From assembly GCA_938743325.2 (NCBI GenBank), contig OW568881.1, positions 620,001 to 684,000 on the forward strand: a stretch of 64,000 nucleotides of DNA, written 5' to 3'. The DNA comes from Pycnococcus provasolii. Lineage: Eukaryota; Chlorophyta; Pseudoscourfieldiophyceae; Pseudoscourfieldiales; Pycnococcaceae. This document shows, piece by piece, positions 7,816 to 40,636 of this stretch (the stretch's first letter is position 1; the number at the start of each line of letters is the position of its first letter). The notes beneath the pieces were generated by a model that had not been told where the DNA came from, made no database searches, and was given only the letters and a program-made list of their open reading frames with translations. The translations under genes were made by a program, and so were the position numbers.

Positions 7816-9213
7816 TTAAAACGAAGTGAACGGCTTGTCAATGATGTGCTTGTGCGCACCCATCTTGCCGTGGCTCACCATCGCGCCCAGCGCGTCGACG
7901 ACAATGCGAAGCGCCATCAGACTCGTGATGTCCGCGTGGTCGTACGGAGGACTCACCTCCACAATCTCCATGCCGCACAGACCCTCCTTCGCCACGAGAC
8001 CGACGAGCTTAAGCGCCTCGCGCGGCAGAAGGCCGCCAGGCTCCGGCCAGCCAGTTCCGGGAACGAACGCCGCCTCGATCGAGTCGATGTCGTACGACAT
8101 GTACACGGCATCGCAGCCGTCCCAAGCACGGTCGAGCGCCATCTCCACGACGCGGTCGATGCCAAGCCGCTCGACGTCGTTCATTGTGAAAATGTTCGTC
8201 TCGCGGTCCACCATGACGGGAACCGCGGGACGAGGAACCTGCCAGCCGCCGATTCCAATTTGAACGAGATTCTCAGGTCGCACGTTAGGCAGGTTCGTCG
8301 CGTGGAACCACGGCGTCGTGTGCATGCGCTCGTCTAGGTCCTTCTCCTGAATATCCGCGTGGCGGTCGACGTGAATGATGCCAATTCGCTTCGACGTCAC
8401 GCTCGCGAGTCCGCGAACGGTGGGATATCCAATCGAGTGGTCGCCGCCGAGGATGATTGGAAAGGAGCCGGTGGACGCGACGTGCGCGACGGCGTTGGAG
8501 ATCTGGTCGAAGCTCTTCTCCAGGTTTGCGGGGATGGTGAACACGTCCCCGGCGTCGCATAGCGTCATCTGCTCGCGCAGGTCAATGCCTCGCTCGTAGT
8601 TGTACGGCGTGTACAGTGCGGAAATGCGCCGTATGCCCTGCGGTCCAAACCGCGTTCCCGACCGGTACGTGGTTCCTCCGTCGAACGGCACGCCGAGCAC
8701 CGTCGCGTCGAAGTCTCCGACGGTGCGAACGTCCTCGACGTACGGCGCCTTCATGAAGGTGTTGATTCCCGCGTAGTGCGGCAGTTCTCCTCGGCTGAAG
8801 GTGGGAATGGTCTTATCTTCGATGGACGACGCGCCAGGCAGTCCAAATTCGAGTCCGCGCGCGAGTTCCTCCTCCCACTTGGTGGTTGGTATTTTGGCCT
8901 CGGCGAGTGCCGCCTTCCACCCGTCCGTGTCTTTCATCGCCTCCTTGAAGTTTGCGGATGCACTGCTTGACGCTTGTTTCTTTGCAGCCTCGAATTCCTC
9001 TTTATGTTTTTTAGCGGCTGGCGTGAGCCACCTCTTCGTGTCCGGCAGGTTGGGGTCTGGGTGGTGGTGGCGGACGTGCGTCAACAAAGCTGAGACAACG
9101 CCAAAGCCAGTATGGCCGGAAGTATTAACAAGGTAAGGTCTCTTGAGAAGAGGAAGGGTGAGGGCCGCAGATGCCTTCAGTGACGCCATGGATGCCGAGG
9201 CCATGGCTGACAT
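7816..9213 (-). CDS. gdmH: Arginase-superfamily hydrolase, probable guanidine hydrolase
   Basis: A 465-residue ureohydrolase-fold enzyme. Metal-binding motifs are intact: GGDHS, HVDRHAD (D-x-H-x-D) and SYDIDS. The residues after the last motif, FVPGTGWPEPGGLLP, and the stretch LVQIGIGGWQVPR match what I recall of nickel-dependent guanidine hydrolases such as cyanobacterial Sll1077. Classical agmatinases and arginases have DP-A-APGTGTP at that place. The family reaction would be guanidine + water to urea + ammonia. The N-terminus (MSAMASASMASLKASAAL...RPYLVN) is rich in Ala, Ser and Arg/Lys and looks like a mitochondrial or plastid presequence, followed by an Ala/Lys-rich extension typical of the long members. 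It is divergent with the urease gene and shares a 1.4-kb upstream region. The family is clear; the substrate call is inference from motif and neighbourhood, with agmatinase the main alternative. Confidence 0.75.
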   Translation of the reverse strand: MSAMASASMASLKASAALTLPLLKRPYLVNTSGHTGFGVVSALLTHVRHHHPDPNLPDTKRWLTPAAKKHKEEFEAAKKQASSSASANFKEAMKDTDGWKAALAEAKIPTTKWEEELARGLEFGLPGASSIEDKTIPTFSRGELPHYAGINTFMKAPYVEDVRTVGDFDATVLGVPFDGGTTYRSGTRFGPQGIRRISALYTPYNYERGIDLREQMTLCDAGDVFTIPANLEKSFDQISNAVAHVASTGSFPIILGGDHSIGYPTVRGLASVTSKRIGIIHVDRHADIQEKDLDERMHTTPWFHATNLPNVRPENLVQIGIGGWQVPRPAVPVMVDRETNIFTMNDVERLGIDRVVEMALDRAWDGCDAVYMSYDIDSIEAAFVPGTGWPEPGGLLPREALKLVGLVAKEGLCGMEIVEVSPPYDHADITSLMALRIVVDALGAMVSHGKMGAHKHIIDKPFTSF

Positions 9214-10623
9214 GTCTGTCTGGTGTTGCGAATGAATGAAGAAAAAAGTGGATAAAAAAACAGAGGGGGGTGGGAAAGGCCGAAAGGGAAGGGGCCCACC
9301 AATAAAGTAACTAGTCTAGGAAATACAAATATCCGAATTACTGTATTATTAGACATTCAGAACCAGAGCAAGAGCAAGGTGTGGCTTGAATGGACTGTAC
9401 ATACTCGGAAAAGGAATGGGAGGAAAACGTGTAACAGGAGTTTGGCCGCACAATACAATTTAATTTTTAAGTTAATACAACACACTTGCACACTTGCACA
9501 TGCCCACAGGTCCTGCCCACTACTTGCCCATTTGGATTTCACCACAACACACATGCCCACTTGGTTGGTTGACCCATTTGGATTTCCTATTTGTAATTTC
9601 TTTTTGCCACTAATTATTGCCAGAATTTGCGCAGAATGCCACGCGTCTGGTTCTTTCCGCCTTCCTTTTCAGCCTTTGCTTTTTTGGGTCTTTGGGAGCT
9701 GGTTGGTAAAAAGTTCTTTTTAGTTCTTACCAGTGGGATGTTGTCGACATCACGCCTTCCTTCCAGCCTTCCTTCCTTCCAGCCTGAAGTTCCTTCCAGC
9801 CTGAAGTTCCTGGCAACTAACCTTACCTTAGTACTGTAATTGCCCCTCTGCTCTTCGTTTTCCCCCCGCGGGGTGTTTCCCCCAGAGGTTTCCCCCAGAG
9901 GTTTCCCCCTCCCTCCCTTTTGGTCCTACGATAGGGTGGGGTGGGGCGGTTGGTAGGTCCAAGCTCGGGTTGGTGGGTCCCTCCCACTCGGGTTCGTCCC
10001 TCTCCTTCGAGAACTCGCCTTGGAACACCTCCTTGGAACTGTGTGCAACATTGCAAGGTTATTAAAATGCGCGATTATTAGGCGATTGGGTCCCGGGAGG
10101 CACCATTACCAACCGCATTGGGTTGGGTTCCCATGATATGCCCTTGATGGGACCTTCGGAACGGGGCCATGAAAGAATTAATTGGCCAATCGTACCCTTG
10201 AATGATGAATTAATTGGTCCAGTACCATGATGAATTAGTGGTAATTGTTCCAATCGCAGTTCTAGAACCCTCAGGGGGTGGGCATTGGGCATGGATTGGG
10301 CAACTCCAACCTTCTTTGAGTCTTTGAGAGAGTTGTTTTGCTTTTCTCTTCTTTTCTGACAACATGTTGAGAGTTCGTTCTCGCCCTCTTCTCTCCTCTT
10401 CTCGGAGGGGCCGTTTTGCCATCCCCCACGCTTGCTTCATCGATCGTTTTTGTTTAGTTTGTGTTTGTGTCAGTGTCAGTGTCAGTGTCGGTGGTGTTGG
10501 CCTTAAGTTGCTTGTTTTCTTGGCCTTAACTCTGGTGGTGGTTGTTTTCTTCTTTGTTTTCTTGGTGAGCTTTTTTTGATAAAGGTTTTATTGCTTTTTT
10601 CTACCTTGGCCTTTGGATCAATC
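9214..10623. promoter_or_regulatory. Shared divergent upstream region of hydrolase and urease
   Basis: 1.4 kb with no supported gene. It contains direct repeats of ccttccagcctgaagttcct near 9760-9810, an AT-rich aattaattgg pair near 10170-10220, and ggggtttcccccagag-type repeats near 9880-9905. A promoter role is inferred only from the divergent arrangement. Confidence 0.45.
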
Positions 10624-13143
10624 ATGTCGCGCCTGAACCCGCACGAGGTGGACAAGCTCGCGCACACGACGGCCGCTGGTGTTTTGGCGCAGAGACGCCT
10701 CGCTCGTGGCACGAAACTGAACCACCCGGAATCTGTCTCGCTGATTGCGTACGTCCTGCTCGAACTAGCAAGAGACGGAAAACACACCGTCGCTCAGCTC
10801 ATGGACGTTGGAAGGTCGCTGCTCGGAAAGAGACAGGTCATGACGCACGTGCCTAGTCTCGTTGACATGGTGCAGGTGGAGGCAACCTTCCCCGACGGAA
10901 CCAAACTTGTCTCAGTGCACTCGCCCATCTCCAACGACGACGGGAACCTGCAGCTCGCGCTGCACGGATCGTTCCTGCCCGTGCCGGAAGTCGCCCTTTT
11001 TGGTGACGTCGTCGAGGAGTCTGGACCAAGCCCAGGCGCGCTCGCGTTTGACGACACCAGCGAAGGCATCGTCATCAACGAAGGACGCGACGCCGTGCGC
11101 ATCACCGTCACCAACTGCGGCGACAGACCCGTGCAGGTGGGCTCGCACTTCAACTTCGCCGAGGCGAACTCGTGGCTTGAGTTTGACAGGATGCAGGCGA
11201 TCGGCCGGCGACTTCACATCGCGTCCGGAACCGCAGTGCGCTTCGAGCCGGGAGAGTCGAAGCAGGTGGTGCTTTGCGGCATTGGAGGCCTTCGCGTCGT
11301 GCGAGGTGGAAACAACCTGGGCATGGACCCGCAGGCTGCTATGGCGGCAATGCAGGAGCAGGGCTTTCGGCACAAAGATGAGCCAGCCGCGGCCACTGGA
11401 ACAACGGCAGATGAGGCGTTCCTCAAGACTGTCACGCGCGCGCAGTACGCGGCGATGTACGGACCGACCACGGGCGATCGCGTGCGTCTAGCGGACACGG
11501 ACCTCTGGGTGCGCGTCGAGCGCGATCTCACCGTGTACGGCGACGAGTGCAAGTTCGGTGGTGGCAAGACGATCCGCGATGGCATGGGGCAGCGCACGGG
11601 CGCAACGGCTACGGAGGTGCTGGACCTCGTTCTGACGAACGCGCTGATTATCGACCACACGGGCATTTACAAGGCTGACATCGGAATCCGCGCCGGGCGC
11701 ATTGCCGCCATTGGCAAGGCTGGCAATCCAGACACGATGGATGGCGTGACACCTGGCATGGTTGTTGGCGTCAACACCGAGGTGATTGGTGCGGAGGGCA
11801 AGATTGTCACCGCCGGCGCATTAGACGTGCACGTGCACTACATTTGCCCGCAGCTGCTCACAGAGGCGATCGCCAGCGGCATCACGACGCTGCTTGGTGG
11901 CGGAACGGGCCCCGCGACGGGCTCGAATGCTACGACTTGCACGCCGCACCCGTCGCAGATGAAGATGATGCTCCAGGCTACGGATTCGTTCCCGATGAAC
12001 ATCGCGTTTACCGGAAAGGGCAATTCATCCGCGCCGGAGGGACTGATTGACATAATCAACGCCGGTGCATGTGGCCTCAAGCTGCACGAGGACTGGGGGA
12101 CGACGCCCGCGGCGATCGACGCGTGCCTGAGTGTCGCCGACGAGCACGACATTGCGGTTACGATTCACACCGACACGTTGAATGAGAGCTGCTGCGTGGA
12201 GAAGTCCATCGAGTCATTCAAGGGGCGAGCCATCCACACGTATCACAGCGAGGGTGCTGGCGGAGGCCACGCACCGGACATTCTTCGCGTATGCGGGGAG
12301 GAGAACGTTTTGCCATCTTCGACCAATCCCACGAGGCCGTTTACGAAAAACACCGTCGAAGAGCACCTCGACATGCTCATGGTGTGCCACCACCTTTCAC
12401 CGAACCTGCCAGAGGACCTGGCATTTGCCGAGAGCCGCATCCGTCACGAGACGATCGCAGCCGAGGACATTCTGCACGACGTCGGGGCCATCTCGATGAT
12501 AGCAAGCGACAGCCAGGCGATGGGTCGCATCGGCGAGGTTGTTTGCCGAACGTGGCAGACGGCGCACAAGAACAAGCTTCAGCGCGGATACCTTCCCGAG
12601 GATGAGGGAACGAATGCCGACAATTTCCGCGTCAGGCGCTACATCGCCAAATACACGATCAACCCATCAATCGCGCACGGATTCTCCGAGCAGGTTGGAA
12701 GCGTCGAGGTTGGAAAGTTGGCCGACCTTTGCCTCTGGTCACCGGCATTCTTCGGCCTAAAGCCTGAGATGGTTATCAAGGGAGGCGCTATTGCGTTCGC
12801 GCAGATGGGTGACGCAAATGCGTCCATTCCCACACCCGAGCCCGTGTTGATGCGACCACAGTTTGGTGCGAATGCACCACCGAGCCGTGACATTGCCGTG
12901 AGCCTTGCATTTGTCAGCCGAGCGTGTATCGAGAGTGGTACCGCGGCGAGCTACGATTTGAAGAAGGTTCCCGTCGCGGTTCGATCTTGCCGCGGTGTCG
13001 GCAAGAAGGACATGGTGCTGAACAGCTACGTGCCCAAGCTGACGGTTGATCCAGAGACGTACGTGGTGACAATGGACGGCGTTCGGCTGACGTGCGAGCC
13101 TCTCGAGGTGGCGCCACTCGCGCAGCTTTACAGCCTGTTCTGA
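10624..13143 (+). CDS. URE: Urease, single-chain eukaryotic type (gamma-beta-alpha fusion)
   Basis: 839 residues from the ATG at 10624, which gives [12 protein letters not shown], the usual eukaryotic urease N-terminus. An upstream in-frame ATG at 10576 adds 16 residues not expected in the family. Gamma (about 1-100), beta (about 130-240) and alpha (about 270-839) parts follow in order. Active-site elements are present: the HVHYICPQ nickel ligands, GLKLHEDWG with the lysine that is carbamylated, [22 protein letters not shown], the flap MVCHHL, and [11 protein letters not shown]. It hydrolyses urea to ammonia and carbamate in the cytosol. The next gene, ureG, converges on it with 85 bases between stops. 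No missing catalytic residue was noticed. Confidence 0.97.
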
Positions 13144-13228
13144 TGTTCAGTCGGATTCAATCGATTTTCAATCATCTGTTCATATTTACTCAATGGTAAC
13201 GGCCGTTTTCTTTACAAAGACGAACTTC

Positions 13229-14154
13229 TCAGTTCTTCTGGCCGCCCGTCGCAGCGCGCCATGACTCGAGGATGTGGTTCGCGATGTCTTCCACTCCCAC
13301 GCCGTGCTTGACTTGTGCAAACACAATCTGTTTATTTAGTGTGTGAGGTTGTTAGTGAAATATGTTTATCCGCCACGGTTGGTCAGAGGTAAACTTACCG
13401 GTCCATCTGCACTCCCATTGCGCCCGACGCGCTGCTTCGTCCCGTCGCGGCGCATCACCTCGAGATCTGCGCCAACCGCCTCCGCGAGGTCCGTCTTGTT
13501 GATGACGAGTAGGTCGCTCTGCGTGATGCCCGGTCCACCCTTGCGCGGGATTTTGTCTCCTCCGCTGACGTCAATGACGTAGATTGTGAAGTCGGCGAGT
13601 TCACGGCTGAAGGAGGCTGCGAGGTTGTCGCCCCCCGCCTCGCACAGGCACACGTCGCACTGAAACTTCCTCGTCAGGTCCTCGAGCGCCGCGAGGTTCT
13701 CAGCCACGTCCTCGCGGATGGCTGCGTGTGGGCACCCTCCTGTTTCGACGGCGGCCACGCGCCCGGGTGCGAGTGCCTCGTGCCTCTGGAGGAATTCGGC
13801 ATCTTCTCGCGTGAAGATGTCGTTTGTCACGCACCCGAGCGAGTAGTCGTCTCTCAAGTGTTTGCAGAGTGCGAGGCAGAGTGCCGTTTTTCCAGACCCG
13901 ACGGGCCCTCCAATCCCGACAGTGAAGGCGCGTGCTCGCGGCGCGTCGCCGCTGTAGACCCTCCCCGGCTGAGCCGCGCTGAAGCTCTCCCCTGGCGCTC
14001 CAAACTGGCCTGGTCCGTCGAGCGGCTCGTGCTTGTGCGGCTTGAGTCCGTCGTGGCTGTGGAAGCCGCCGCCGAGGTCGACGACGTCGTGCGCGTGTCC
14101 GTGTCCGTGTCCTTGGTCGTGGTCATGCGCGTGGTCGTGGTCGTGCGCAGACAT
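13229..14154 (-). CDS. ureG: Urease accessory GTPase UreG (two exons)
   Basis: Exon 1 is 14154-13399 and exon 2 is 13327-13229, giving 284 residues. The N-terminus is a His/Asp tract ([20 protein letters not shown]), as in plant UreG, where it is thought to hold nickel and replace the missing UreE. The GTPase part has P-loop [25 protein letters not shown], and NKTDLA as the base-recognition motif. Exon 2 supplies the family C-terminus [19 protein letters not shown]. The upstream ATG at 14286 would add 44 residues without family support, so 14154 is chosen. UreG uses GTP hydrolysis to load nickel into urease together with UreF and UreD. Confidence 0.95.
13328..13398 (-). other. Spliceosomal intron in ureG (71 bp)
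   Basis: On the minus strand the donor is CCG|GTAAGT and the acceptor AACAG|ATTGTG, phase 0, with a CACTAAC branch-like motif about 30 bases before the acceptor. Joining restores the conserved C-terminus of UreG exactly. Confidence 0.93.
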
Positions 14155-14295
14155 GACAAGAGCTGCAGCAGAACGGGAAAAATGCGCGGAGATGTTTTCC
14201 CAATTCCAACAGTCCGAGGGAATCGCAATCGGCGAAACAGAAAGAAGAAGAAAGAAGGCGCGTGTCGAACGCTTACTGTAAAACAAGTACTAGTC

Positions 14296-14528
14296 TATAC
14301 CATGTCGTTTAACGTGTGCTTAACTCCACATGAACTTAACAGGTGACAGGTGACATCTAAAGGTATACCATGCCGTTTAACGTGTGGTTAAGTCCACATG
14401 AACTTAACAGGTGACATCTAAAGGTATACCATGCCGTTTAACGTGTAGTTAAGTCCACATGAACTTAACAGGTGACATCTGTAAAGGTATACCATATCGT
14501 TTAACGTGTGGTTAAGTCCACATCATGA
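14296..14528. repeat. Four tandem 61-68-bp repeats with a palindromic core, between ureG and ureF
   Basis: Copies begin with tatacc at 14296, 14364, 14425 and 14488. Each holds tttaacgtgtggttaagtcc followed by acatgaacttaac. Inside, gttaagt and acttaac form perfect 7-bp arms around ccacatga in the better-preserved copies. The first copy carries an extra ggtgacag and the last breaks off after the palindrome's first half. The block sits in the 530-bp divergent region of ureG and ureF, where it could bind a dimeric regulator. That role is inference. Confidence 0.85.
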
Positions 14529-14684
14529 ACCTACTTCCTTCCCCAACCATTCGCCGGCCGATCTTTAATCTTTCTCCCCAGCAAGGTCTGGGAGTTACCT
14601 TAAAAACCGCAAACGCACCTCGCCCTCGCACGCCATCTCCCGAGGCCTCGATTAATTGTCTCGTGCAGAAAAGCAGCAAGGAAC

Positions 14685-15440
14685 ATGGCCGCCGCTGAGA
14701 TTGTTGGTACCGGTGGTAGTGCCTCCTCCTTCATTTCGCGTGTTGACCGCCTCGCGCTCTGGAGACTCACGGACGCGTCCCTGCCTGCCGGCGCCTTCGC
14801 ACACTCCCTCGGCGTCGAGGCGGCCGTCAGACACGCGCTCGTGCCTGCCGGGGAATACGCGCGGCTCGTCGAGATGATCGTCGAGAACGCCGCGGCGACG
14901 TTCATGCCCACGGTGCTCAAGGCACACGCAAACCCAACCATGAAGACGGTCAGGGAACTTAGTGACGTGCTCCACGCAAAGCTTGCGCCAAACGAAGTGG
15001 CAAGGAAGGCATCCGTGAGCAACGCTAGAGGACTCGCCAGGGCAGCCGAGGCGGCTTTCGCGACGCAAATCAAACAGAGACTTCGAAAGGAGGATGTCGA
15101 AGAGCTCATGCGAGCGACGGACGACGTGCACCACGCAGCTGTTTTCGGACTCGTCGCACGAGCGTGTGGAGCAACACTGCACGATGCTGCCATGGCGTTC
15201 CTGCACAGTGCTGCACGTGACGCCACGTCCGCACTCACCAGGCTGGGCGCCATAGGACCAACCGCGGCGGCGTCCATACTCGCCGACGTCGCGGCGGTTG
15301 TCGTGCAAACTTCCGACGAATCCGTCGACGCGTTTCACAGAGGCGACCTGCAGCCAATGGACGCCTACTGCGCGACGCCAATGATCGAGCTCGCGCAAGC
15401 AGCGCACGGCGCACTCCAGCCGCGCCTCTTTCGATCGTGA
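14685..15440 (+). CDS. ureF: Urease accessory protein UreF
   Basis: 251 residues, the usual UreF size. Family hallmarks are LWRLTDASLPAGAFAHSLGVE near residue 26 and the C-terminal RLGAIGPTAAASIL stretch. UreF sits between UreD and UreG in the nickel-loading complex and acts as a checkpoint for the GTPase. The start at 14685 (MAAAEIVGTG) is the only suitable ATG. It is divergent from ureG across the four-copy repeat and convergent with the symporter gene. Confidence 0.93.
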   Translation: MAAAEIVGTGGSASSFISRVDRLALWRLTDASLPAGAFAHSLGVEAAVRHALVPAGEYARLVEMIVENAAATFMPTVLKAHANPTMKTVRELSDVLHAKLAPNEVARKASVSNARGLARAAEAAFATQIKQRLRKEDVEELMRATDDVHHAAVFGLVARACGATLHDAAMAFLHSAARDATSALTRLGAIGPTAAASILADVAAVVVQTSDESVDAFHRGDLQPMDAYCATPMIELAQAAHGALQPRLFRS

Positions 15441-15666
15441 CAAGTTTCATGTGATGTGTGTGTAACTCTTATGTCAATAATGTCAATTCTAAATCAGCTG
15501 AAACGGTTTTTGATTACTTAATAGACTACGAATAAACTAAACCCATTTCCCTCTGTAACATTCAACGAAACGTCATTGCACCAATGGCGCATGCGCACAT
15601 CACATATATACACATATCAAAAAAAAAAGAAGAGGAAAAAAGAAACGTACGCGCAACGCGTTTTCC

Positions 15667-18276
15667 TCACACCACGGTGCCCTTCACCATCTCCGTCTCC
15701 GCCTCACCCTTAGGCTCAGCGTCGTCGATTTGCACGTGGCCTGTGTCGTCAAACTTCTTGTATGGCTGCATCCAAGCACCGCCGATGCGAACGCCGGCGT
15801 AGTTATCGAGAGCGTGGAAGATCACGTACAGAAGCAAGCCGAACACAGGGCTCACAAGGCTGTCCAGGCCCGTCCAATCTTCATACCGTTCCGCCTTGCA
15901 CTGGCTCTCGCCGTCCTTGTCGATGCCGAACGCAATGCCCGCAGATTCCGCGTCTCCGACGTGCGTGCCATTCCACCTCAACAGCTCCGGCATGTCAGTG
16001 AATCCGGGCACGTAGCTATTCACGCCGCCGGGGCCGGCAAGGTTCAGGAACTCGTCGCCCTTCCAAGGTGCGATCAGGTAGCCGTCCTTCTTCAGAGCAA
16101 ACTCGAGAATGAGTCGGAGCAGGGCGCCTCCGATGATGGACATAGTTGCCGCCGTGGCGCTGGGTTTGGACGTGTAAAACGCAGCGAAGAGCGACACGAC
16201 GCAGCTCGCCAGAGCAATATCAAACGCGACGATCAGAAGGTACCCCGTGCCAGCGCTGTGATTAATCTTGGCATAAGCAGCGATGATCGCCCCGATGAAG
16301 GCGAAGGGGACGGTCGCGGCGCGCGAAACATTCAAGAGCTGCGCATCTGTCATCGGCGAGAAGTGGCGAGCGATGTTGTGGCTGAGCACCGTGCCCATGG
16401 CCAAAATAGCTCCATCGGATGTCGACATACTCGCCGCCACGATTCCGATGAGAGCCCATCCTCCAATGAATTGCGGAACGTCGTGAGTAAGCAACTTGAT
16501 CGTTGCCAAGTTGTCGGGGACCCAGAGCGCGCATGTGGGGAGCATGAGCAGCTTGTTGCAGCTGTCCGGTTCGAATTCAGCGAAGATGCTGTCCGGGCCA
16601 TACATGTATCGGGTGACACCACCCACGTACGCCCACGGGATGCCGACGACGAACGTGAGGAGGCCGGCAATGATGCAACCAATCACAGCCACATTAGGCG
16701 TCTTTGCCGCCATGCAGCGCGCCTGGAAGTCGAGCGCGGCGAGATTTCCAAATCCAAGGACGAATATGGTCGCCCAGTTGAACAGGATGGCGTTGGGGAA
16801 CGGGGAGTAGGCGTCGGGCTTCGTCATGTAGTCCTTCACCGGGTGTGCGTCTCCCACCGGGTACGCGCCGTTGTCGATACGCACGGTGCCCGAGAAGTTG
16901 GCGGAACCCTCATTCAGCCACTTGTCTGCGTTGTAGCAGCAAGTGTCGTTTTGCCAGTTTTGGCACGGCACACCGTCGTACAGGTCGCACGCGCCACCAT
17001 CTCCCTTCTTGTCGGGGTACGCGTACCCGAACGGAGGCCCAAATCCAATGGAGAGCGGCGGCGCGCCGTCAGTCATCGTCGGCTGAACGGACACCTGGTA
17101 GTCGTCGTTGCGCATGTTGTGGATGATCCAGAACGCCGTCACAAGGCATCCCGTCCACCCGATGACGCTCTGGATGCAATCCGTGTACGCGACGGAGTAC
17201 AGTCCGCCGCACGCCGTGTAGACGAGCGTGATGAGCGCGGCGACCCACACGCCCTGGCTCGCGTCGATGTCCGGGCTGATGTACTGCAGGATGGCGCCCA
17301 TGCCGACGAGGTTTCCCGCAAGCAGCATGAGGAACGACGTGATGAGGCAAACGGATGCGGCGATCTCCGGCACCTTGCCGAATCGCTGCGCGAAGACGTC
17401 GGGGAGCGTCATAACGTTTTCCTCGTTGATTTTCCTCGCGAGGAAGATGCCGTTGAGAATGAGCGACAGGCCAAGCCCAATAGGGAGCACGGCGCCGTCC
17501 CAGAAGTTGTAGTAGTGCGCGAGGTCCGCGTTGCCGAGCAGCGCGTTGGAGTCGATCGACTGGCTGGCGAGGGTCATCGTGACCACCCAGAGAGGCAGAG
17601 ATCGCCCGGCGACAAAGAAGTTTTGGGCGTCTCCCTTGATGAAGTAGATGGTGCCAATTCCGATGAGGCAGAAGATGACCATGAACACTACAATTGTTGC
17701 GAGGAAGCCCTTGTGCGGCTCCTTGAGCTTCTCTGGACACGGCAGCACGCAAGCGTCATACATGCAGCACGACTCCTTGCCCGTGGCGGGGTAGCCAGGC
17801 TTGTCCCAGTCCACCTCGTACTTGCCGAACGACTCGTGCGCGCGTTTGCACTTCGCCGGGTCGATGGTGCCGATGGGTACTCCTTCTTCGACGAGGCATC
17901 CGGCTGGCCCACCACCAGCGACTGGGTCGCCGTCAGGGTCGAGATACAGTCCGAGGAACTCCTCCTCGAGCATCGGCTCCGCGAAGCACGTCGTGTCCTT
18001 CCATCCCATGGTGGCTGACTTCACCGCCTTAAGTTCCCTGCGCTTGACCATTTCGTCGTGTTTCGACTTTCCCGTTCCAGGTTTGAACGGCGACTTGCTC
18101 TGCGGCTTGTAGTCCACCCCAAGTTTCTCGTGGTGTTTTTGAATTGCGAGCACGGACCGACGTCGAATGACATCTTCGCGCCACGACGTGGTTCTTCCTC
18201 GCGTCGCTTCGGCGACGAGCGCGAGTGCTGCGAGCACCACAAGGAAAGTTGCGAGGCGGGACAAGGCGGCCAGCAT
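15667..18276 (-). CDS. Na+/solute symporter (SSS/SLC5 family), substrate uncertain
   Basis: 869 residues. It has a signal-like hydrophobic N-terminus (MLAALSRLATFLVVLAALAL), a Cys-containing extension to about residue 195, then about 13 membrane spans. SSS landmarks are FFVAGRSLPLW, the LASQSID helix, and GGLYSVAYTDCIQSVIGW, which resembles the choline-transporter branch (SLC5A7) more than DUR3 urea symporters. A Cys-rich loop (CDLYDG...CCYNADKW) lies mid-protein. The neighbours urease, UreF and UreD point to import of urea, guanidine or another small nitrogen compound, but the sequence does not prove it. It converges with ureF (226 bases between stops) and diverges from ureD. Confidence 0.85.
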   Translation of the reverse strand: MLAALSRLATFLVVLAALALVAEATRGRTTSWREDVIRRRSVLAIQKHHEKLGVDYKPQSKSPFKPGTGKSKHDEMVKRRELKAVKSATMGWKDTTCFAEPMLEEEFLGLYLDPDGDPVAGGGPAGCLVEEGVPIGTIDPAKCKRAHESFGKYEVDWDKPGYPATGKESCCMYDACVLPCPEKLKEPHKGFLATIVVFMVIFCLIGIGTIYFIKGDAQNFFVAGRSLPLWVVTMTLASQSIDSNALLGNADLAHYYNFWDGAVLPIGLGLSLILNGIFLARKINEENVMTLPDVFAQRFGKVPEIAASVCLITSFLMLLAGNLVGMGAILQYISPDIDASQGVWVAALITLVYTACGGLYSVAYTDCIQSVIGWTGCLVTAFWIIHNMRNDDYQVSVQPTMTDGAPPLSIGFGPPFGYAYPDKKGDGGACDLYDGVPCQNWQNDTCCYNADKWLNEGSANFSGTVRIDNGAYPVGDAHPVKDYMTKPDAYSPFPNAILFNWATIFVLGFGNLAALDFQARCMAAKTPNVAVIGCIIAGLLTFVVGIPWAYVGGVTRYMYGPDSIFAEFEPDSCNKLLMLPTCALWVPDNLATIKLLTHDVPQFIGGWALIGIVAASMSTSDGAILAMGTVLSHNIARHFSPMTDAQLLNVSRAATVPFAFIGAIIAAYAKINHSAGTGYLLIVAFDIALASCVVSLFAAFYTSKPSATAATMSIIGGALLRLILEFALKKDGYLIAPWKGDEFLNLAGPGGVNSYVPGFTDMPELLRWNGTHVGDAESAGIAFGIDKDGESQCKAERYEDWTGLDSLVSPVFGLLLYVIFHALDNYAGVRIGGAWMQPYKKFDDTGHVQIDDAEPKGEAETEMVKGTVV

Positions 18277-19192
18277 GGTGCCGAGTCAAGCAGCGAGTCT
18301 AAGCTCGAGGAGAATGACAAAGGAGTGAGTCAGGACAGGGTTGGCCACACGGCGAGCTGCTGTGCGAGGGAGTGGCCGGACGTTAGCAGTTGACGTTGTT
18401 CAGGTGCTTGCGAGGACTGGCTTGCGTTTATTTATTTGTACGCGTTTCGGATTGTGGTACTCCGGGTACGTGGTCGTTTCAAGGTGGTGGAACGCGTTTC
18501 CAAGGCGTCCGGGGAGACGATTCGCGGCGCCGAAAAGACGCTTTTAGGCGAGCAATTCACGCATGTAGGAGGAGAGTGCCCTCTTGTAGGAGGTGCCCAC
18601 ATTTTTAAAGGTATGCAATCGCACCATCATTAAGCCTACCATAAAGTTTAGTCTTACCTTTTGCTTGTATGAGGATGTGATGTCAACGGTCAACCGAGTA
18701 AACCGACCGATGAGAGTCCGATGAGATCGATGGTCTGTAATATAGTAGTCTAATGTTGGTTTTGTTGTCGACATCGCACGAAATCCATAGTTATGTAGCT
18801 GCACGAAATAACCTTAGGTGCGACGACCCGTGTGGATTCGCAGGTACAGTAGTACTACCGGGTACCCGGTAGGTATCGCGACATGATGATTGGCGCTTGG
18901 CGATTGTGCTGTTTCTTGCATTCGCCATAGGGCCTTTTCGGTGCCCTTAAAAAGGTACCCTTTAGGTACGTTTTCCGGGTGCATCAGACGTTTATTAATA
19001 TCAGGTTAGGTCGGAGAACCTGGTCGTCGGAGACTTTTGCAAGAGAGCCCATCGCCCGATGCATCTCAAACCCGAATCATAGCGCCCTCATCTCAAAACC
19101 CGAATCAACACCCCCTCCCCCTGGCCTTGCACTACTGGCCTTGCCCCTCCCCGCCCCACCTGCTGTGTCGTATCGTAGTGCTCTCGAGGATC
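18277..19192. promoter_or_regulatory. Divergent upstream region of symporter and ureD
   Basis: No supported gene. It contains an 18-bp perfect palindrome ctaccgggtacccggtag at 18855-18872. A 77-codon AT-rich ORF on the minus strand (ATG at 18774) has no family signal. The four-copy ureG/ureF repeat was not found here. Confidence 0.45.
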
Positions 19193-20155
19193 ATGACGGC
19201 TGCGGCGCACGAGACCATAGCAGCACACAAATCTCCTGCCGCAGTCTCTGCACATACCGAAAACGGCAGGGGGCTGCTGTGCGTGTCTCGGCCACACCTC
19301 AAGGCAACCACAGCCACGCGCGTCTCGTTCGCGTACCCGCTGCGCCTGTTCGTGCCGAAACTGCCGCAGGACCCAAACACGGAAGCGGCGTGCACGGCGT
19401 TCATTTCCACGTACGGAGGCGGGCTCGTCTCAGGGGACTGCGTCGCGCTTGACGTCGACGTGCGGGAAAATGCCAAGCTCACCGTCGCAAGCCTTGCGGA
19501 GGGTAAGGTGTACCGCCGACGTGGCAAGAGAGAGAGGGACGAAGGGACGGACGTCGTGCCAGCGCGCATGGACGTCGTGTGCGACGTCGCGCCTGGAGCA
19601 AGTCTGCTGTGGGTGCCCGAGCCAACAAGCCTCTTCCAGGACAGCGCTCTCGCGTCGAGCCTGCGCGTGTCTCTCGCGGATGACAGCGCATCTTGCATGC
19701 TCGTCGACTGCGTGACGGCAGGTCGAACGGAACGTGAAAGGGGGACTTTAGGCGAGGAGTGGGCCGCCGCCTCACTTGACACGCGCGTGGACGTTTCCGT
19801 GGGTGGTAAGCTCGTGCTCTCTGACCACGTGCGTGCGTCTGCGCCGCACCTGCGCCCTCGCCTCGGCGGCGCTGGCGCGCGCACGGCTTGCCTTTTGGTG
19901 TTCCTCGGCACGCCGTTCTCCGAGATCGCGTCGCACGCGGAGGCTGAGGCGCGCCGGCTTTCTCAGGACTCGTTCCAATCTCTTGCGCCAGGAAGCCGCG
20001 CCGTGTTCGCATCGAGCAGTCGATTTCATGGTGGACGAGGCGTGTGCATTCGCGCTGCGAGCACGGACGTCGCGAGCCTGCGATCGTTCGTGCGCCATTG
20101 CCTGCTCCCGCTCGTGAAGGTGCATGGCCACGGCGTGCTGGACCTGTGGCCGTGA
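19193..20155 (+). CDS. ureD: Urease accessory protein UreD
   Basis: 320 residues from the ATG at 19193 (MTAAAHETI). A longer frame from 19037 adds 52 residues with no conserved content. UreD features are VSFAYPLRLFVPKL, the STYGGGLVSGDCVALDVDV stretch, WVPEPTSLFQD and the C-terminal FVRHCLLPLV. Several basic inserts (YRRRGKRERD) look lineage-specific. UreD binds urease directly and forms the tunnel through which nickel is delivered. Its presence completes the eukaryotic set UreD, UreF and UreG. Confidence 0.92.
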   Translation: MTAAAHETIAAHKSPAAVSAHTENGRGLLCVSRPHLKATTATRVSFAYPLRLFVPKLPQDPNTEAACTAFISTYGGGLVSGDCVALDVDVRENAKLTVASLAEGKVYRRRGKRERDEGTDVVPARMDVVCDVAPGASLLWVPEPTSLFQDSALASSLRVSLADDSASCMLVDCVTAGRTERERGTLGEEWAAASLDTRVDVSVGGKLVLSDHVRASAPHLRPRLGGAGARTACLLVFLGTPFSEIASHAEAEARRLSQDSFQSLAPGSRAVFASSSRFHGGRGVCIRAASTDVASLRSFVRHCLLPLVKVHGHGVLDLWP

Positions 20156-20858: not shown

Positions 20859-21827
20859 ATGTCATCCTCGGCGTCGGACGACAGCTCACCTTCGTCTTCC
20901 TCCTCGTCTTCGTCTTCGTCTTTGTTGTACTCGTCTTTGATAACGCGCGCGTTCGCCGTCGACCTCACGGCCGGATGGCTCGCAGGAGCCGCCTCCGTCG
21001 CTGTCACGCAGCCGCTCGATACCGCGCTCGTTAGACTGCAGGCGTCTAACGCACGCACGACGTCGTCCGTCGTCAAACTCGCGAGCAGAACGCCATGGGC
21101 GGGGTCCGTGCCCATGGTCGCGCTCGTGCCCGTGCAGAACGCTATGCTCTTCGCGGGATACGGCGTCGGGGCGAGGATGGTCGACAGAGACGCGGGAGAC
21201 GATAGCACCGCGGCGCTCGCCATATTAACGGGAGGGTGCGTGGGAGGCGTGGCGCAGAGCTTCGCCGCGAGTCCTGCAGAACTGGTCAAGGTGCGTATGC
21301 AGCTTGGAGCTGGGGTAGGTGCGCCGGGCAACCTCAACCTGAACGTCAACGCCGCCGCCGCCGCCGCCGCTACCGCCGCGCCAGCCGCGCGTGTCAGCAT
21401 CGTGCCAACTGCGGCACTTCAAGGTGCGATGCGAAACCCGTTCAAGGGACTAGGTGCGACCGTGCTCCGCGACGGCTTGCCGCATGGCGTGTGGTTCCTC
21501 AGCTACGACGTCGCGAAGAAACGGCTTAAGGAGGGCGGCGCGTCCGACGACGCGTCGGCTTGCATCGGCGGAGGAATTGCCGCCGCCGTCGCGTGGATCG
21601 TCGGCTATCCCGCGGACGTCATCAAAACGCGCGTGCAGATCGCGCGGCCAGCCGGAACACCGAGCGTCGGCGTCATTGCCGCGGCACGCGAGCTTCTCGC
21701 GGAGGCGAACGGGAACGTTGCCGCGGCGTTCTACCGCGGCCTGGGCCTAAAGCTCAGCCGCGCCGTGCCCGCAAGCTTCGTGGGATTTGGGGTGTACGAG
21801 TGGGCGCGCGCAAAGCTCGAGTCGTGA
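20859..21827 (+). CDS. Mitochondrial carrier family (SLC25) protein
   Basis: 322 residues from MSSSASDDSS, after which a Ser tract precedes the carrier fold. The three carrier signatures are visible: QPLDTALVRLQ, SPAELVKVRMQ and YPADVIKTRVQ, one per repeat, with GLGATVLRDGLPHGVWFLSYD and FYRGLGLKLSRAVPASFVGF between or after them. The pattern fits the basic-amino-acid/carnitine-acylcarnitine branch loosely. Next to a nitrogen-scavenging cluster an arginine or ornithine carrier would make sense, but that is a guess. Converges with the next gene (66 bases between stops). Confidence 0.85.
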   Translation: MSSSASDDSSPSSSSSSSSSSLLYSSLITRAFAVDLTAGWLAGAASVAVTQPLDTALVRLQASNARTTSSVVKLASRTPWAGSVPMVALVPVQNAMLFAGYGVGARMVDRDAGDDSTAALAILTGGCVGGVAQSFAASPAELVKVRMQLGAGVGAPGNLNLNVNAAAAAAATAAPAARVSIVPTAALQGAMRNPFKGLGATVLRDGLPHGVWFLSYDVAKKRLKEGGASDDASACIGGGIAAAVAWIVGYPADVIKTRVQIARPAGTPSVGVIAAARELLAEANGNVAAAFYRGLGLKLSRAVPASFVGFGVYEWARAKLES

Positions 21828-28756: not shown

Positions 28757-29878
28757 TTAGCAGTGAATGCCGCTCGTGCAGTCGCCTCGTTCCAGCAGAC
28801 GCTCGTTAATCAGAACGTTCGTTCGCAATGGATTGTGCCACCGCACGATGCCGAATAGTGCGCCGAGCCGTGTACCCCAGACGCGGCTTGCGAGCACGCG
28901 CAGCAGCGTACGTTCCGCCTCGGCGTTATGCCGCTGGTCCCACCCTTGGAAGTGCGGATCCTTGAAGTACTCGAGATCTTGAAGATTTTGCTTCGCGATG
29001 GTTCCCGCTCCGATGCCGTACACATCCACGAAGTTGCATTCCGTGAGTGCAAGCACGAGGCAGTACAGTCCCGTCGTCGGCACGCCCTCCTCCTCGCCCA
29101 CGCCCGCCTGCATGGTCATCAGCAGTTCCTCCGTGAGTCGCTGCACCGTGGCGTCCATATTCAAGGCGCGCTCGTTATCTGAACGTCGCACGCAAAGTCC
29201 ACCCGGGCTGCTTTCTATGCACGGCTTGTCGTTGGCGACACCCTGGCTGACGTCCTGCCCAGCGACGTCACCGACGACAAGAACTCGCTGCGGCAATTCA
29301 CCCGTGTCGGTGATTAGTTTTGGATTTTCCTTGAGAGCTTGTCTTAACTTTTTCGGGTTGAGGCACTGCGTGTGTGTTGTGCTTCCGACGTCTGCGGCAT
29401 AAGCCTTGAGCGGAGCAAAGTTCATGCGGTAGACGTGTTTCGAGCTGTCAATTTTCGGTCCCAGGTTTGCTGAGCGCATGGATGAGTCGTTGCCGACTAC
29501 GCTGCAGTTTGGGCGTAGGTTTCTTTCTTGGTTGGCTTGAATGTTGCTGAGAAGAGCTTGTATCTGTTGTTCCGTGAGCTGCCTCGGCTCCGTTTCGTGT
29601 GAGCGCTGTTGCTGTTGTTTGTAAATGTTCGTTTGCTGTGTCTCCGTCGCCGTCGGCGTACCTCGCCGCCGCAGTCTTTGTCTGAGCGCGTCGAGCGCAT
29701 TGCCAGGCTTTTGTGCGTTGTAGTTAGCGTCCGTTGAGGGTGCTGAGAGGGAGATGCTAACTCCATAGGACGTCCCCAGGAGGAGCAGGAGGGGGACGGT
29801 GAGTACAAGCACCATGAGCAGGCGAAGAAAGGTAACCACACGGCCTTTCGCATTGATATTGTTGCGAGACGCTGACAT
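28757..29878 (-). CDS. Sialyltransferase-like protein (GT29 family), copy A
   Basis: 373 residues, type II Golgi topology: short basic tail, span RLLMVLVLTVPLLLLLGTSY, Gln-rich stem. Sialylmotif L is seen in NCSVVGNDSSMRSANLGPKID and YRMNFAPLKAYAADVGSTT. Motif S is seen in PTTGLYCLVLALTECNFVDV, followed by YGIG. The motif VS His/Glu pair is in HNAEAERTLLRVL. In plants and algae this family often transfers sugars other than sialic acid (for example Kdo-like), so the donor is open. The 3' end carries one of the repeated flank elements. Confidence 0.85.
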   Translation of the reverse strand: MSASRNNINAKGRVVTFLRLLMVLVLTVPLLLLLGTSYGVSISLSAPSTDANYNAQKPGNALDALRQRLRRRGTPTATETQQTNIYKQQQQRSHETEPRQLTEQQIQALLSNIQANQERNLRPNCSVVGNDSSMRSANLGPKIDSSKHVYRMNFAPLKAYAADVGSTTHTQCLNPKKLRQALKENPKLITDTGELPQRVLVVGDVAGQDVSQGVANDKPCIESSPGGLCVRRSDNERALNMDATVQRLTEELLMTMQAGVGEEEGVPTTGLYCLVLALTECNFVDVYGIGAGTIAKQNLQDLEYFKDPHFQGWDQRHNAEAERTLLRVLASRVWGTRLGALFGIVRWHNPLRTNVLINERLLERGDCTSGIHC

Positions 29879-30200
29879 GAACGGCGACTGCTATTAAGAT
29901 GGTGGTGACCAGTGACCGGTGACCAGTGCGAGTTAGACGAGTTAGACGGACATGAAGGAAGAAAGCTTGGGACGCACACGTGGACTTGGACTTTTCCTAA
30001 CCTTAACCTTAAGGGAGACAACAACAGAGGGCCCAGGCACCCCCTGGAGGTGGGGGGGAATCCTACATACTCGGAGGAAGTGGTTACCATATACCATGTA
30101 TAAAGCATGACATCACGTGTTTACGTCACGTTACTTGACTTGACTGCGGAAGGAAGGCAATGGGTCAATGGGAAGGGTTCAGGGGCCCCTGCTCGTTCCC
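29879..30200. other. Intergenic upstream of GT29 copy A
   Basis: No gene seen. Contains cctaaccttaaccttaaggg near 29997-30013. Confidence 0.5.
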
Positions 30201-36535: not shown

Positions 36536-37197
36536 ATTGTAGGCACTGCAGGTCTATAAAAATCCGGGGGCAAAACTTGCAATTTCCTGGTTTCACCCCC
36601 GGGTTTCGCGACTTTAGACACCCGCCTTAGTACTACGGTAGTCCATCCAGATGGATGATGAGGATCGCTGCCGTGTTGATCGTCATTCGTCACGAGCGAG
36701 GCGTGCAATAAACGAATCTCTTATCTCTGCGAATCTCTGCGAATCCATCCGCGCTGTACTTTTTAGTGTAATTCGCTCAGTGGCTGACGACAATTGGAGC
36801 GCAGCACGGTCACGTGATCGCTTGATTGGGCAATTTGGACCAAATCACGAGATCGTGGATGATGGATGGATGAGGATGGATTGGTCGGGACACGTGCCTC
36901 GTCAGACTGTTGCACGGCGCGTTGCACAGGGTGAGTTGCACAGGCGGTGTCGAGTACTCGAGGTGACGTCTGTGTTCTGTAGTGTTCTTCGTCATTCTTT
37001 TCTTCATCGCACTACTTAAGGTTAACTTACAAGTTTGCGAATCTTGCGCCAGCTGGTGCATGCCCTTGGAGACCTCCTTTTTTAGTATTGCTAGTCACAA
37101 CCTTGGTGTCTCCTCAGAAGATACGTCAGCAACGCTCGAAGAAGAATAAGTACTTCATCAGCTCTCCATCGACCCTGTCCCTTCAGCTCATAACCTT
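36536..37197. other. Intergenic / upstream of the EF-hand paralogue
   Basis: No supported gene; a 122-codon frame at 36651-37019 lacks family signal. From about 37058 the sequence resembles the upstream region of the minus-strand EF-hand gene near 2560-2660. Confidence 0.5.
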
Positions 37198-38625
37198 ATG
37201 TCTACTCCGGCTGGGAACCAAGCACTCGGCGAGGTGCGCAAGGTGCTGCACGGCGTTCGTATCGCCGACTGCCCGCCGGAACTGCGTGAGAAACTCGCGC
37301 AATATGATACCAACGGAAACGGCATCATCGACCCGGACGAACTGCCTGACCCCATGTCCGCGGAGATGAACTATCTCAAAGTCTCTTCGTTTCCCAAGAA
37401 GGTGCAACCGCTCCTGAACGACATTGACGACGAGAAAAATGGAAAGATCGAGATGGACGAGCTCACGGATATCCTCACCGTATACGCGGACTTGAAGAAG
37501 GCGAACAAGGAAGGCTCCATCGCCATCAAGACACTTCCGAAGGAAATCCAGCCAACGCTCAAGGTGTTCGATGTCGACGGTGACGGAACGGTCGCGCCCA
37601 TGGAGCTTGCTCGTGGAGCGGAGCTCTATAAAGAATCCAAGAAGACAACCAAGCGACTCACGATCTTCAGCGGAGTTCTCTTGGTAATCCTGTGCGCCCT
37701 CGTGGGCGTCATCGTCGCACTCACCGCGGTGGTCGTCGAGGCGAGCAAGGAGACGAAGACGGACAGCAAGACCGGCATCACGTTCGCGAAGGGGTCCAGC
37801 AAGCCTTCGGCGACAGCAAAGGTGACGAAGACGGATTCCATCTACAACGCGGTGAAGAAGTCAGCGTCGGCTCTCCGCGCGATCGGCTCGCTGACGCTCA
37901 GTAAGCCGGACGGCTCCTCCCTGATCTACAGCATTACCGGCGCAGAGACACACGGTGGTGCGCCAGGCAAGGCAAACGCCGTCGCGTTTTACTCGGCGCG
38001 TGGCGATGTCATCAACGTTACGGCAACGTCGCTGAAAGTGACCAAGGAGGATGGAACGATCGTGATGACTGACACCATCGTGGCTGAGAAGTCTCGCCGC
38101 CGGCGCCTTCTCGACAGTGGCAGTGACGGTAAGGCATCAATCACGTCTGATTCTGATTCTGGGGAGGACAAGGACGAGGACAAGGACAAGGACGAGGACT
38201 ATGACGACGACGACGAGGACGAGGACGAGGAGGATGATTGCTATGAAGTAATGCCTTATACAGGCGGACAGAAACGGAAGTGTACGGAGGATTGCGAGGA
38301 TGGCTATTACGAGGAAACGGACAGCTCTACAGGTTTACCTACGTGCAAGTTCATTAAGCTGAAGTGCCCGGATACTGAACACGAGATTGCCGCGCCAACC
38401 AAGACAACTGACCGCCAGTGTTCCTATAACGGCAATTGCAAGGACGCAAAATTGGACGATTTTGGAACAATGACGAAAGCATGGTGCATGAGCACGTGGC
38501 AGGCCCCCAACTACTGCGAAGGCGTCCAGAACGGATGCGCGAACTGCGACGATGATGCAAAAGGCAGTTGGTGCATGCCCATGGGCGGCGGCGAGTCCTG
38601 CTACTGCGAAGGTGGTGTGGAATAA
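37198..38625 (+). CDS. EF-hand / single-span protein with acidic and Cys-rich ectodomain
   Basis: 475 residues. EF-hand loops lie at 37-48 (DTNGNGIIDPDE), about 76-89 and 125-136 (DVDGDGTVAPME), with a membrane span at about 154-179 and linker VVVEASKETKTD. A beta-rich stretch follows, then polybasic SRRRRLLDSG, a long Asp/Glu run (DEDKDKDEDYDDDDEDEDEE) and a C-terminal Cys-rich part with about 20 Cys (CYEVMPYTGGQKRKC and on). About the first 190 codons are nearly base-identical to the gene at 2560. Up to the span I count roughly eight isolated base differences plus a small N-terminal indel, then similarity stops abruptly. No signal peptide; probably the N-terminus is cytosolic. Role unknown; a calcium-sensing surface protein is inferred. 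Confidence 0.85.
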   Translation: MSTPAGNQALGEVRKVLHGVRIADCPPELREKLAQYDTNGNGIIDPDELPDPMSAEMNYLKVSSFPKKVQPLLNDIDDEKNGKIEMDELTDILTVYADLKKANKEGSIAIKTLPKEIQPTLKVFDVDGDGTVAPMELARGAELYKESKKTTKRLTIFSGVLLVILCALVGVIVALTAVVVEASKETKTDSKTGITFAKGSSKPSATAKVTKTDSIYNAVKKSASALRAIGSLTLSKPDGSSLIYSITGAETHGGAPGKANAVAFYSARGDVINVTATSLKVTKEDGTIVMTDTIVAEKSRRRRLLDSGSDGKASITSDSDSGEDKDEDKDKDEDYDDDDEDEDEEDDCYEVMPYTGGQKRKCTEDCEDGYYEETDSSTGLPTCKFIKLKCPDTEHEIAAPTKTTDRQCSYNGNCKDAKLDDFGTMTKAWCMSTWQAPNYCEGVQNGCANCDDDAKGSWCMPMGGGESCYCEGGVE

Positions 38626-38767: not shown

Positions 38768-40636
38768 TCAAGCAAGTCGCTCCAGGAAGCCGTCGAGCCA
38801 CATGCGCAAGAGCACGTCGCTCTCGAGCGCGAAGCTGTGATGTGCGAATGGACGTAGCTTCGTCGCGTCCTGCACACCGCCGCCGTGGAAGTAGTGGTAT
38901 CGCGTGCCTCCTGACCCTCCTCGTCGGCTGTAGCGAGGTGTGCCGTGGAACAGGCACATCGAAGGAGATCGCGGCGACGGCTCAACATCTCTGATTGGAC
39001 AGCGCCACTGGCCAATGCCGTAGATGCTCACACTCGAGCAGTGACGAAGGCTCATCACTGCAGCGAGAAAGCCCGTGGATGGCGAGGTTCCCGCACCCCA
39101 CCTCATCGTCTCAGGTTCTGGAGCTCCAAGTTGTGACGCACGACGGCGCGCGCAAAGCAGCAGCGTGTGTGCATGAGCCACGAAAACACTCGAAATCAAA
39201 GACATATACACGTTGTTTTTGTGCGAGAAGCGTTTGGCAAAAGCGAGAAATTCCTGAGCCGAGACGCGGCTAAGCACGACGTGTACGGACATCCGCTGTT
39301 TATCGCCCGTGTCGCCCGTGCCTCCATCTCCATCCACGCCTCCCGTGCCAAGCCGAAGCCTCTTCGTCAATCGATATTCTTTGCTCCACTTGTGGTTCAG
39401 CATGCGAACCGATGTTCGCGATCCCGCAAGTGTTTCGTAACCACTCGTGGGACCTTGATTCACGCGAATCACGATATCGTGCTCGTCGATTTCCTTCCCA
39501 AGGGTCGCATTTGACAGCGAGCCGCCATTGCCAACCACAGCACATCGATTTGCGCGAAGCTTTGGCAGCGAAGCTGCTGCAATGGAATCTTTTTCGCTGA
39601 CAGCGCTATTGTGAATGATGGCCGGCAGCGGAACGTGAACCTGCGGCGTGCGAAGTCGCTTGAGCACCTCGGCCATACCGCGAGAACGTAGCTTACGTAC
39701 AAGAGCTGACACTCGAGCATCTTCCGAGCCGGAAGTGAGCGCCAACTCCATCGTCTGCAAATCTGGCAAGAGAACGGCGCCGCCGAGAAGCCTCTGGTAT
39801 TTCTCAGGATATCCGATAGAAGCCAGAAGTTGCCTCGCCTCGTCGAGCGTACCACCGCGAAACGAAGCGACGCGGTCTATGCCACCTTCCAGCTCCGCAG
39901 CTAGCTCAAGTTCTCGCGGGGTGCGCGGTCTCGCCTGCGCGCCCGGCACGCGCGCCCAAGTTGACGCGGATACGAAGACGTCCGGCGTCGTCGGAACGTC
40001 AAAATTCAGCACGGGTGGCGACTCTGCGTTCATCCCTTCTTTGTCCGCGCCGCGTCGACGAGCTCGCCAGTACGCGAGAAAGCTTCCTCTACCTCTCTGG
40101 GGCATTGCACACGCTTGCTGTGCAAGTTGCGAAGCTATTTGATAAACTTCCTCTTCGCCGTCGTCCTCGTCGTTGCTCGTGTGGTTGACGAGAAGAGAAG
40201 ATGCCGGCGGCATTGGCCGAGGTGGAAGAGGCGGTGGATGTTTTGGTGCCTCAGAACGCGTTCCTGTAAGGCTGAGAACGTCCGAGCGATTGAGAAGAAA
40301 CTCGCGCGTAAACGGTATTGTCAGGTCATCGCAAAGTCCGCGCACTCGCGACGAGGTTGCAAGCCAAGGCAGTGTAGCAGCAGGTGTCGTTGTTGACGGT
40401 GTGAACGTGTGTGTGATTGTAATGGTTGTGGTTGTGGTTGTGGTTGTGGTTGTGGTTGTGGCAGCCTTATTAGGCGCTAGTCGGCGCGCCGTAGCTGGTT
40501 TTGGCAACGAGATCGGGTAGACGTCGTCCGACTTGGCATCTTCCCTCTTGTGCTCGTACGGCGTCGGGATGAGTGCGAGCAGGGCACACGTGACGAGCGC
40601 GCCTGCGATCTGCGTTTGGCGTGCGCGCACCTTCAT
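38768..40636 (-). CDS. Sialyltransferase-like protein (GT29 family), copy B
   Basis: 622 residues from the ATG at 40636 (MKVRARQTQIAGAL); the longer frame begins at a non-ATG codon. A short tail and one span (IAGALVTCALLALIP) are followed by a very long stem, with a Thr run encoded by (gtggtt)n at about 40415-40460. Motif L is CAVVGNGGSLSNATLGKEID and VIRVNQGPTSGYE, motif S is SPSTGFLAAVMSLRHCSSVS followed by YGIG, and the VS pair is in HHSFALESDVLL. It resembles plant and algal GT29 proteins. It is not a tandem duplicate of copy A; the two differ strongly outside the motifs. Confidence 0.85.
   Translation of the reverse strand: MKVRARQTQIAGALVTCALLALIPTPYEHKREDAKSDDVYPISLPKPATARRLAPNKAATTTTTTTTTTTTITITHTFTPSTTTPAATLPWLATSSRVRGLCDDLTIPFTREFLLNRSDVLSLTGTRSEAPKHPPPLPPRPMPPASSLLVNHTSNDEDDGEEEVYQIASQLAQQACAMPQRGRGSFLAYWRARRRGADKEGMNAESPPVLNFDVPTTPDVFVSASTWARVPGAQARPRTPRELELAAELEGGIDRVASFRGGTLDEARQLLASIGYPEKYQRLLGGAVLLPDLQTMELALTSGSEDARVSALVRKLRSRGMAEVLKRLRTPQVHVPLPAIIHNSAVSEKDSIAAASLPKLRANRCAVVGNGGSLSNATLGKEIDEHDIVIRVNQGPTSGYETLAGSRTSVRMLNHKWSKEYRLTKRLRLGTGGVDGDGGTGDTGDKQRMSVHVVLSRVSAQEFLAFAKRFSHKNNVYMSLISSVFVAHAHTLLLCARRRASQLGAPEPETMRWGAGTSPSTGFLAAVMSLRHCSSVSIYGIGQWRCPIRDVEPSPRSPSMCLFHGTPRYSRRGGSGGTRYHYFHGGGVQDATKLRPFAHHSFALESDVLLRMWLDGFLERLA

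Follow-up and report, generated by a model that had tools for sequence, protein, structure and literature searches.

A candidate gene cluster for the use of guanidine in the nuclear genome of the green alga Pycnococcus provasolii

To our knowledge, guanidine breakdown has been studied almost only in bacteria. What is the role of a locus in P. provasolii in which a hydrolase gene of the arginase family lies next to genes for urease, for urease assembly proteins and for a transporter? A sequence-only reading had proposed that six adjoining genes at positions 7816-20155 form a guanidine-scavenging locus. This proposal was examined in the window, by which we mean the whole 64-kb stretch of DNA analysed (64,000 nucleotides of contig OW568881.1). 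Profile searches against curated families found all six genes where that reading had placed them, and in the families it had named: arginase-family hydrolase, fused urease, UreG, UreF, SSS symporter and UreD. The features of the locus are as follows.

9213-7816, minus strand: gdmH-like gene (predicted guanidine hydrolase), 465 aa, intronless, N-terminal extension of about 95 aa; PF00491, 6e-78
9214..10623: divergent intergenic region gdmH/ureABC, 1410 bp
10624-13143, plus strand: ureABC (urease, gamma-beta-alpha fused), 839 aa; PF00449/00547/00699/01979 and NCBIfam alpha, beta and gamma
14154-13229, minus strand: ureG, whole gene, 284 aa, one intron; TIGR00101, 254 bits vs cut-off 204
13399..14154, minus strand: ureG exon 1, His-rich N-terminus
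13328..13398, minus strand: ureG intron, 71 bp, GTAAGT...CACTAAC...AACAG
13229..13327, minus strand: ureG exon 2
14155..14684: divergent intergenic region ureG/ureF, 530 bp
14685-15440, plus strand: ureF, 251 aa; PF01730, 6e-20
18276-15667, minus strand: SSS symporter (probable guanidine importer), 869 aa; SSF, PF00474
18277..19192: divergent intergenic region SSS/ureD, 916 bp
19193-20155, plus strand: ureD, 320 aa; PF01774, 4e-36

The genes are arranged as three divergent pairs (gdmH/ureABC, ureG/ureF and SSS/ureD) joined tail to tail at two convergent junctions (about 90 bp and 226 bp), which agrees with the divergent and convergent pairing described earlier. If about 10,000 genes in random order are assumed, the probability of finding five named genes inside one six-gene stretch is of the order of 1e-13, and chance is not a serious option as the cause of the clustering. 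The three divergent regions share no promoter word beyond chance. Short tandem repeats (about 60 bp, TTAACGTGTGGTTAAGTCCACATGAACTTAACAGGTGACAT) lie between ureG and ureF, at about 14300-14510. Among the larger ORFs in the rest of the 64-kb window no further pathway genes were found, and the window holds no tRNA or rRNA. A mitochondrial carrier gene (20859-21827) lies directly downstream of ureD on the same strand. Elsewhere in the window there are two sialyltransferase-like GT29 genes (28757-29890 and 38768-40708) and two genes for EF-hand membrane proteins (2-2776 and 37150-38625), which are in opposite orientation about 35 kb apart and near-identical in their N-terminal halves.

The fused urease and the ureG intron mark the sequence as eukaryotic. 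The intron has a canonical donor and acceptor and a branch-point-like CACTAAC, and its removal restores the conserved C-terminus of UreG. Since the codon usage of all six genes matches that of other genes in the window (r = 0.86-0.97), they appear to be nuclear genes of the host rather than a bacterial contaminant insert. With the intron and the codon usage as the basis, the cluster looks resident in the nuclear genome.

Which substrate does the hydrolase act on? Its best matches in the PDB are the guanidinase of Nitrospira inopinata (9fek) and GdmH of Synechocystis (7esr/7oi1), at 540 bits each, and it is 63% identical to each of these two structurally solved guanidinases; the next PDB family, proclavaminate amidinohydrolase, follows at 167 bits. 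The six metal ligands are kept (H259, D283, H285, D287, D375 and D377). By a published definition (PMC11410670), guanidinases have Thr105 and Trp313 in the N. inopinata numbering, and His222 and Glu344 are mentioned besides; the window hydrolase carries this Thr/His/Trp/Glu signature as T182, H298, W389 and E419. Bit scores in the PDB and the tree both place it with the characterised guanidinases and not with other ureohydrolases, and generic agmatinase models match it below their cut-offs (PRK02190, 206 vs 302 bits; TIGR01230, 150 vs 174). Its AlphaFold model, with a mean pLDDT of 61, was too weak to use.

The 80 closest bacterial proteins come from SAR324, Alphaproteobacteria and Gammaproteobacteria and are 71-80% identical to the algal protein, and every one of them keeps all the signature and ligand residues. 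A guanidine-I riboswitch scored above the Rfam cut-off in eight of the ten loci tested for these relatives, and was also present at Limimaricola and Rubrobacter loci. Genes for an ABC importer (substrate-binding protein, permease and ATPase) precede gdmH in most of the 80 loci, and the riboswitch-gdmH operon of two gammaproteobacterial MAGs has urease genes upstream of it. Because of this riboswitch, importer and urease context of its relatives, the function assigned to GdmH rests on more than the residues alone. By every sequence test applied, the reading of the window hydrolase as a guanidine hydrolase (GdmH) is supported; the identity to known guanidinases, the score of 540 vs 167 bits, the residues kept and the riboswitch-linked relatives all bear out the earlier suggestion that it is probably such an enzyme. 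Many of the bacterial riboswitch operons have a small ORF of about 150 aa, with no Pfam match, after gdmH (for example L041:11164-11616, with about 40 similar loci). Its N-terminus is often His-rich, as it is in the alphaproteobacterial cases, and we consider it a candidate nickel chaperone of the guanidinase. A search for this ORF in the 64-kb window gave no match.

In a maximum-likelihood tree, GdmH groups with two SAR324 sequences (support 100/99) inside a proteobacterial group. The simplest reading of this placement is that a bacterial lineage close to SAR324/Proteobacteria passed gdmH on by horizontal transfer. The gene is patchy within SAR324, being found in 2 of 52 genomes. In one of these two, a contig end carries a guanidine-I riboswitch followed by the same substrate-binding-protein gene as in the relatives; the gdmH operon of this genome lacks its upstream part, which this piece probably represents. 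A cyanobacterial origin is disfavoured, the Synechocystis protein being 63% identical as against 71-80% for SAR324/Proteobacteria. Viral contigs were also searched for GdmH relatives, and the 265 pattern matches included no relative.

By inspection, a hydrophobic, signal-peptide-like stretch and a soluble stretch of about 165 aa precede the SSF core of the symporter; its AlphaFold model (mean pLDDT 37.5) was too weak to use. In a tree it groups with a ureohydrolase-linked SSS subfamily with support of 100/100, at an identity of only about 35% to the bacterial members. For the Rubrobacter member, identity is about 57% to those of Nonomuraea, Haloarcula and Halalkalicoccus, 68% over a truncated copy from Natronorubrum, and less than 28% to the other SSS proteins among the matches listed. 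In Rubrobacter indicoceani (NZ_CP031116) a guanidine-I riboswitch is followed by a guanidinase gene (66% identical) and then by the SSS gene; behind these lie genes for a formamidase, urease gamma, beta and alpha and UreF, with UreD across the origin of the record and part of a UreG-like frame at its edge. Nonomuraea has its guanidinase and SSS genes next to each other in divergent orientation. An agmatinase-family gene lies near the SSS gene in all seven plasmid records that carry a subfamily member; a second H. marismortui record (NC_006395) was treated as a duplicate of the plasmid analysed. Among the seven is the record with the truncated Natronorubrum copy, which has an insertion element adjoining it.

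The partner ureohydrolases of the haloarchaea have Glu where guanidinases have the signature Trp, and their substrate probably differs from guanidine. These haloarchaeal pairs may form a pathway for some guanidino compound. On three haloarchaeal plasmids (L081, L082 and L083) the pair lies near a PhoU-type or AbrB-type regulator, and a formamidase gene (fmdA) is found near the SSS/ureohydrolase pair in both Rubrobacter (L096:3601-4845) and Haloarcula (L082:11192-11323).

The guanidine importers named in the sources consulted are of the ABC and APC types (PMC11410670, PMC12186494), and our literature search found no description of one of the SSS type. Guanidine import is our best guess for the window SSS protein, and a probable one, because it belongs to the ureohydrolase-linked clade and because its nearest solved structure is CHT1, a carrier of an organic cation. 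Given the identity of about 35% and the Glu-type ureohydrolase that accompanies the haloarchaeal members, its substrate could also be another guanidino compound.

If the locus is read as a whole, the following pathway may be proposed. The SSS symporter would import the guanidinium cation. A GdmH-type enzyme, as its sequence and the context of its relatives suggest, would convert guanidine to urea and one ammonia, and the neighbouring fused urease would be expected, from what is known of its family, to release CO2 and a further two ammonia from urea. UreD, UreF and the His-rich UreG would, likewise by family knowledge, load nickel into urease. The tree supports a horizontal origin of gdmH in a bacterial lineage near SAR324/Proteobacteria, and the urease is of the fused eukaryotic form. 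Selection may have favoured the clustering because the enzymes act in a single pathway and share a demand for nickel. We consider it probable that the clustered nuclear genes serve to obtain nitrogen from free guanidine, with import, transfer and selected clustering all included in the explanation. The scavenging locus proposed from sequence is thereby favoured, with an SSS gene of the same type directly behind a riboswitch-controlled guanidinase elsewhere.

Another explanation would do without scavenging: the hydrolase may detoxify or recycle guanidine made in the cell, for example by homoarginine-6-hydroxylase, an enzyme known in plants and green algae, while the symporter carries something else. 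Endogenous guanidine production has been described in plants and algae (PMC11018352), and a cyanobacterium without GdmH is poisoned by guanidine (PMC8390497); we nevertheless find this possibility unlikely, since the cluster contains the type of importer that is encoded directly behind a riboswitch-controlled guanidinase elsewhere, and since the bacterial relatives carry import systems. It seems quite unlikely that only the hydrolase concerns guanidine and that the symporter is a DUR3-type importer of urea. Such an importer would be logical beside a urease, and DUR3 is likewise an SSS protein, but the solved DUR3 proteins gave no match to the window protein even at E 10, the Rubrobacter relative reaches 85.8 bits against the choline transporter CHT1 and 19.6 bits against DUR3, and the nearest SSS relatives pair with ureohydrolases. 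On these grounds we rejected the DUR3 reading. The symporter, which the sequence-only reading had left as a generic SSS protein, is now read as a probable guanidine importer.

Could gdmH instead have landed by chance, after its transfer, beside an ordinary eukaryotic urease cluster? In green algae the neighbourhood of urease genes is conserved (PMC7826186), which would provide the setting, but the same chance placement would be needed for two unrelated families, gdmH and its SSS partner, and in Rubrobacter, too, these functions are linked; we judge this very unlikely. Least probable of all is that the hydrolase has as its substrate a larger guanidino compound (agmatine, guanidinobutyrate or methylguanidine) in a cluster for arginine/agmatine catabolism that feeds urease, a reading to which the generic family models, albeit below cut-off, and the agmatinase-family annotation of plasmid relatives lend something, and against which stand the identity to two experimentally characterised guanidinases, the Thr/Trp signature and the riboswitch control of the relatives.

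Both enzymes of the proposed guanidine pathway raise the matter of nickel. The urease matches single-chain ureases of 840 aa over its full length (1106-1115 bits), and the features that define eukaryotic ureases are present, namely gamma, beta and alpha in one chain and the partners UreD, UreF and UreG. The scan of the larger ORFs of the 64-kb window revealed no HypA/HypB-type nickel chaperone. Such dedicated chaperones characterise the cyanobacterial operon and are not universal for guanidinases, being absent in comammox (PMC11410670). It is tempting to speculate that the urease chaperones UreD, UreF and UreG may also serve GdmH, with UreG, a relative of HypB by profile search, as a candidate. 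The boldest version of our proposal, in which a eukaryote has a self-contained guanidine locus obtained partly by horizontal transfer, with a new class of SSS guanidinium importer and with UreD, UreF and UreG also serving the guanidinase, is tentative and somewhat doubtful as a whole. The search of the window for structured RNAs and riboswitches returned no genuine one; the sole Rfam match, RF02514 (5' ureB antisense RNA, 11573-11866, antisense to urease), is likely a by-product of conserved urease coding sequence, because it also appears over unrelated ureC genes in loci L047 and L096.

How much of this is new? Urease gene clustering in green algae has already been described (PMC7826186). Our literature search found no paper on an algal guanidinase, and no description of a linkage of guanidinase, importer and urease genes in a nuclear genome. 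The abstract of the paper in which Funck et al. described the discovery of GdmH in 2022 reportedly lists heterokont algae among the probable carriers of guanidine hydrolases. Since algal guanidinases are said to have been predicted already, and green-algal urease clustering is known, the novelty lies in the combined locus and in the SSS prediction. Taken singly, each component is of a known kind or has bacterial relatives that are known; what appears to be new is the full set, side by side in a eukaryote, together with a guanidine importer that is likely of a new type. If the reading is true, a complete nuclear locus from uptake to ammonia would show that eukaryotes compete for the guanidine nitrogen pool. 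The window symporter offers a candidate eukaryotic importer of guanidine that can be put to the test, a prediction that extends to Actinobacteria and, for a related substrate, to haloarchaea, and the locus allows one to ask how a guanidinase obtains nickel without the bacterial chaperones.

Several known systems resemble parts of this locus. Urease assembly genes are also clustered in green-algal urease neighbourhoods and in the cited case of Galdieria phlegrea, whereas no guanidinase or SSS partner is named there in the accessible part of the text. The choline transporter SLC5A7/CHT1 is the closest solved structure to the window SSS protein and carries an organic cation, but it comes from different organisms and its overall similarity is low. 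Synechocystis GdmH (Sll1077) is a Ni-dependent guanidine hydrolase, 63% identical and with the same signature and ligands, whose urea is passed to urease; unlike the algal locus, its operon is bacterial and has a guanidine-I riboswitch, an ABC importer and HypA/HypB-type chaperones, with the urease elsewhere in the genome. The locus of the comammox bacterium Nitrospira inopinata shares a GdmH-type enzyme (63%), a secondary transporter, a urease in the genome and the lack of a detected dedicated nickel chaperone, and differs in being bacterial, in its riboswitch, in having an APC-superfamily permease in place of the SSS protein and in having its urease outside the locus. In Rubrobacter indicoceani (NZ_CP031116), too, a single stretch carries genes for a guanidinase, a symporter of this SSS subfamily, urease ABC, UreF and UreD, but this stretch is bacterial and riboswitch-controlled, with separate urease subunits and a formamidase gene in between.
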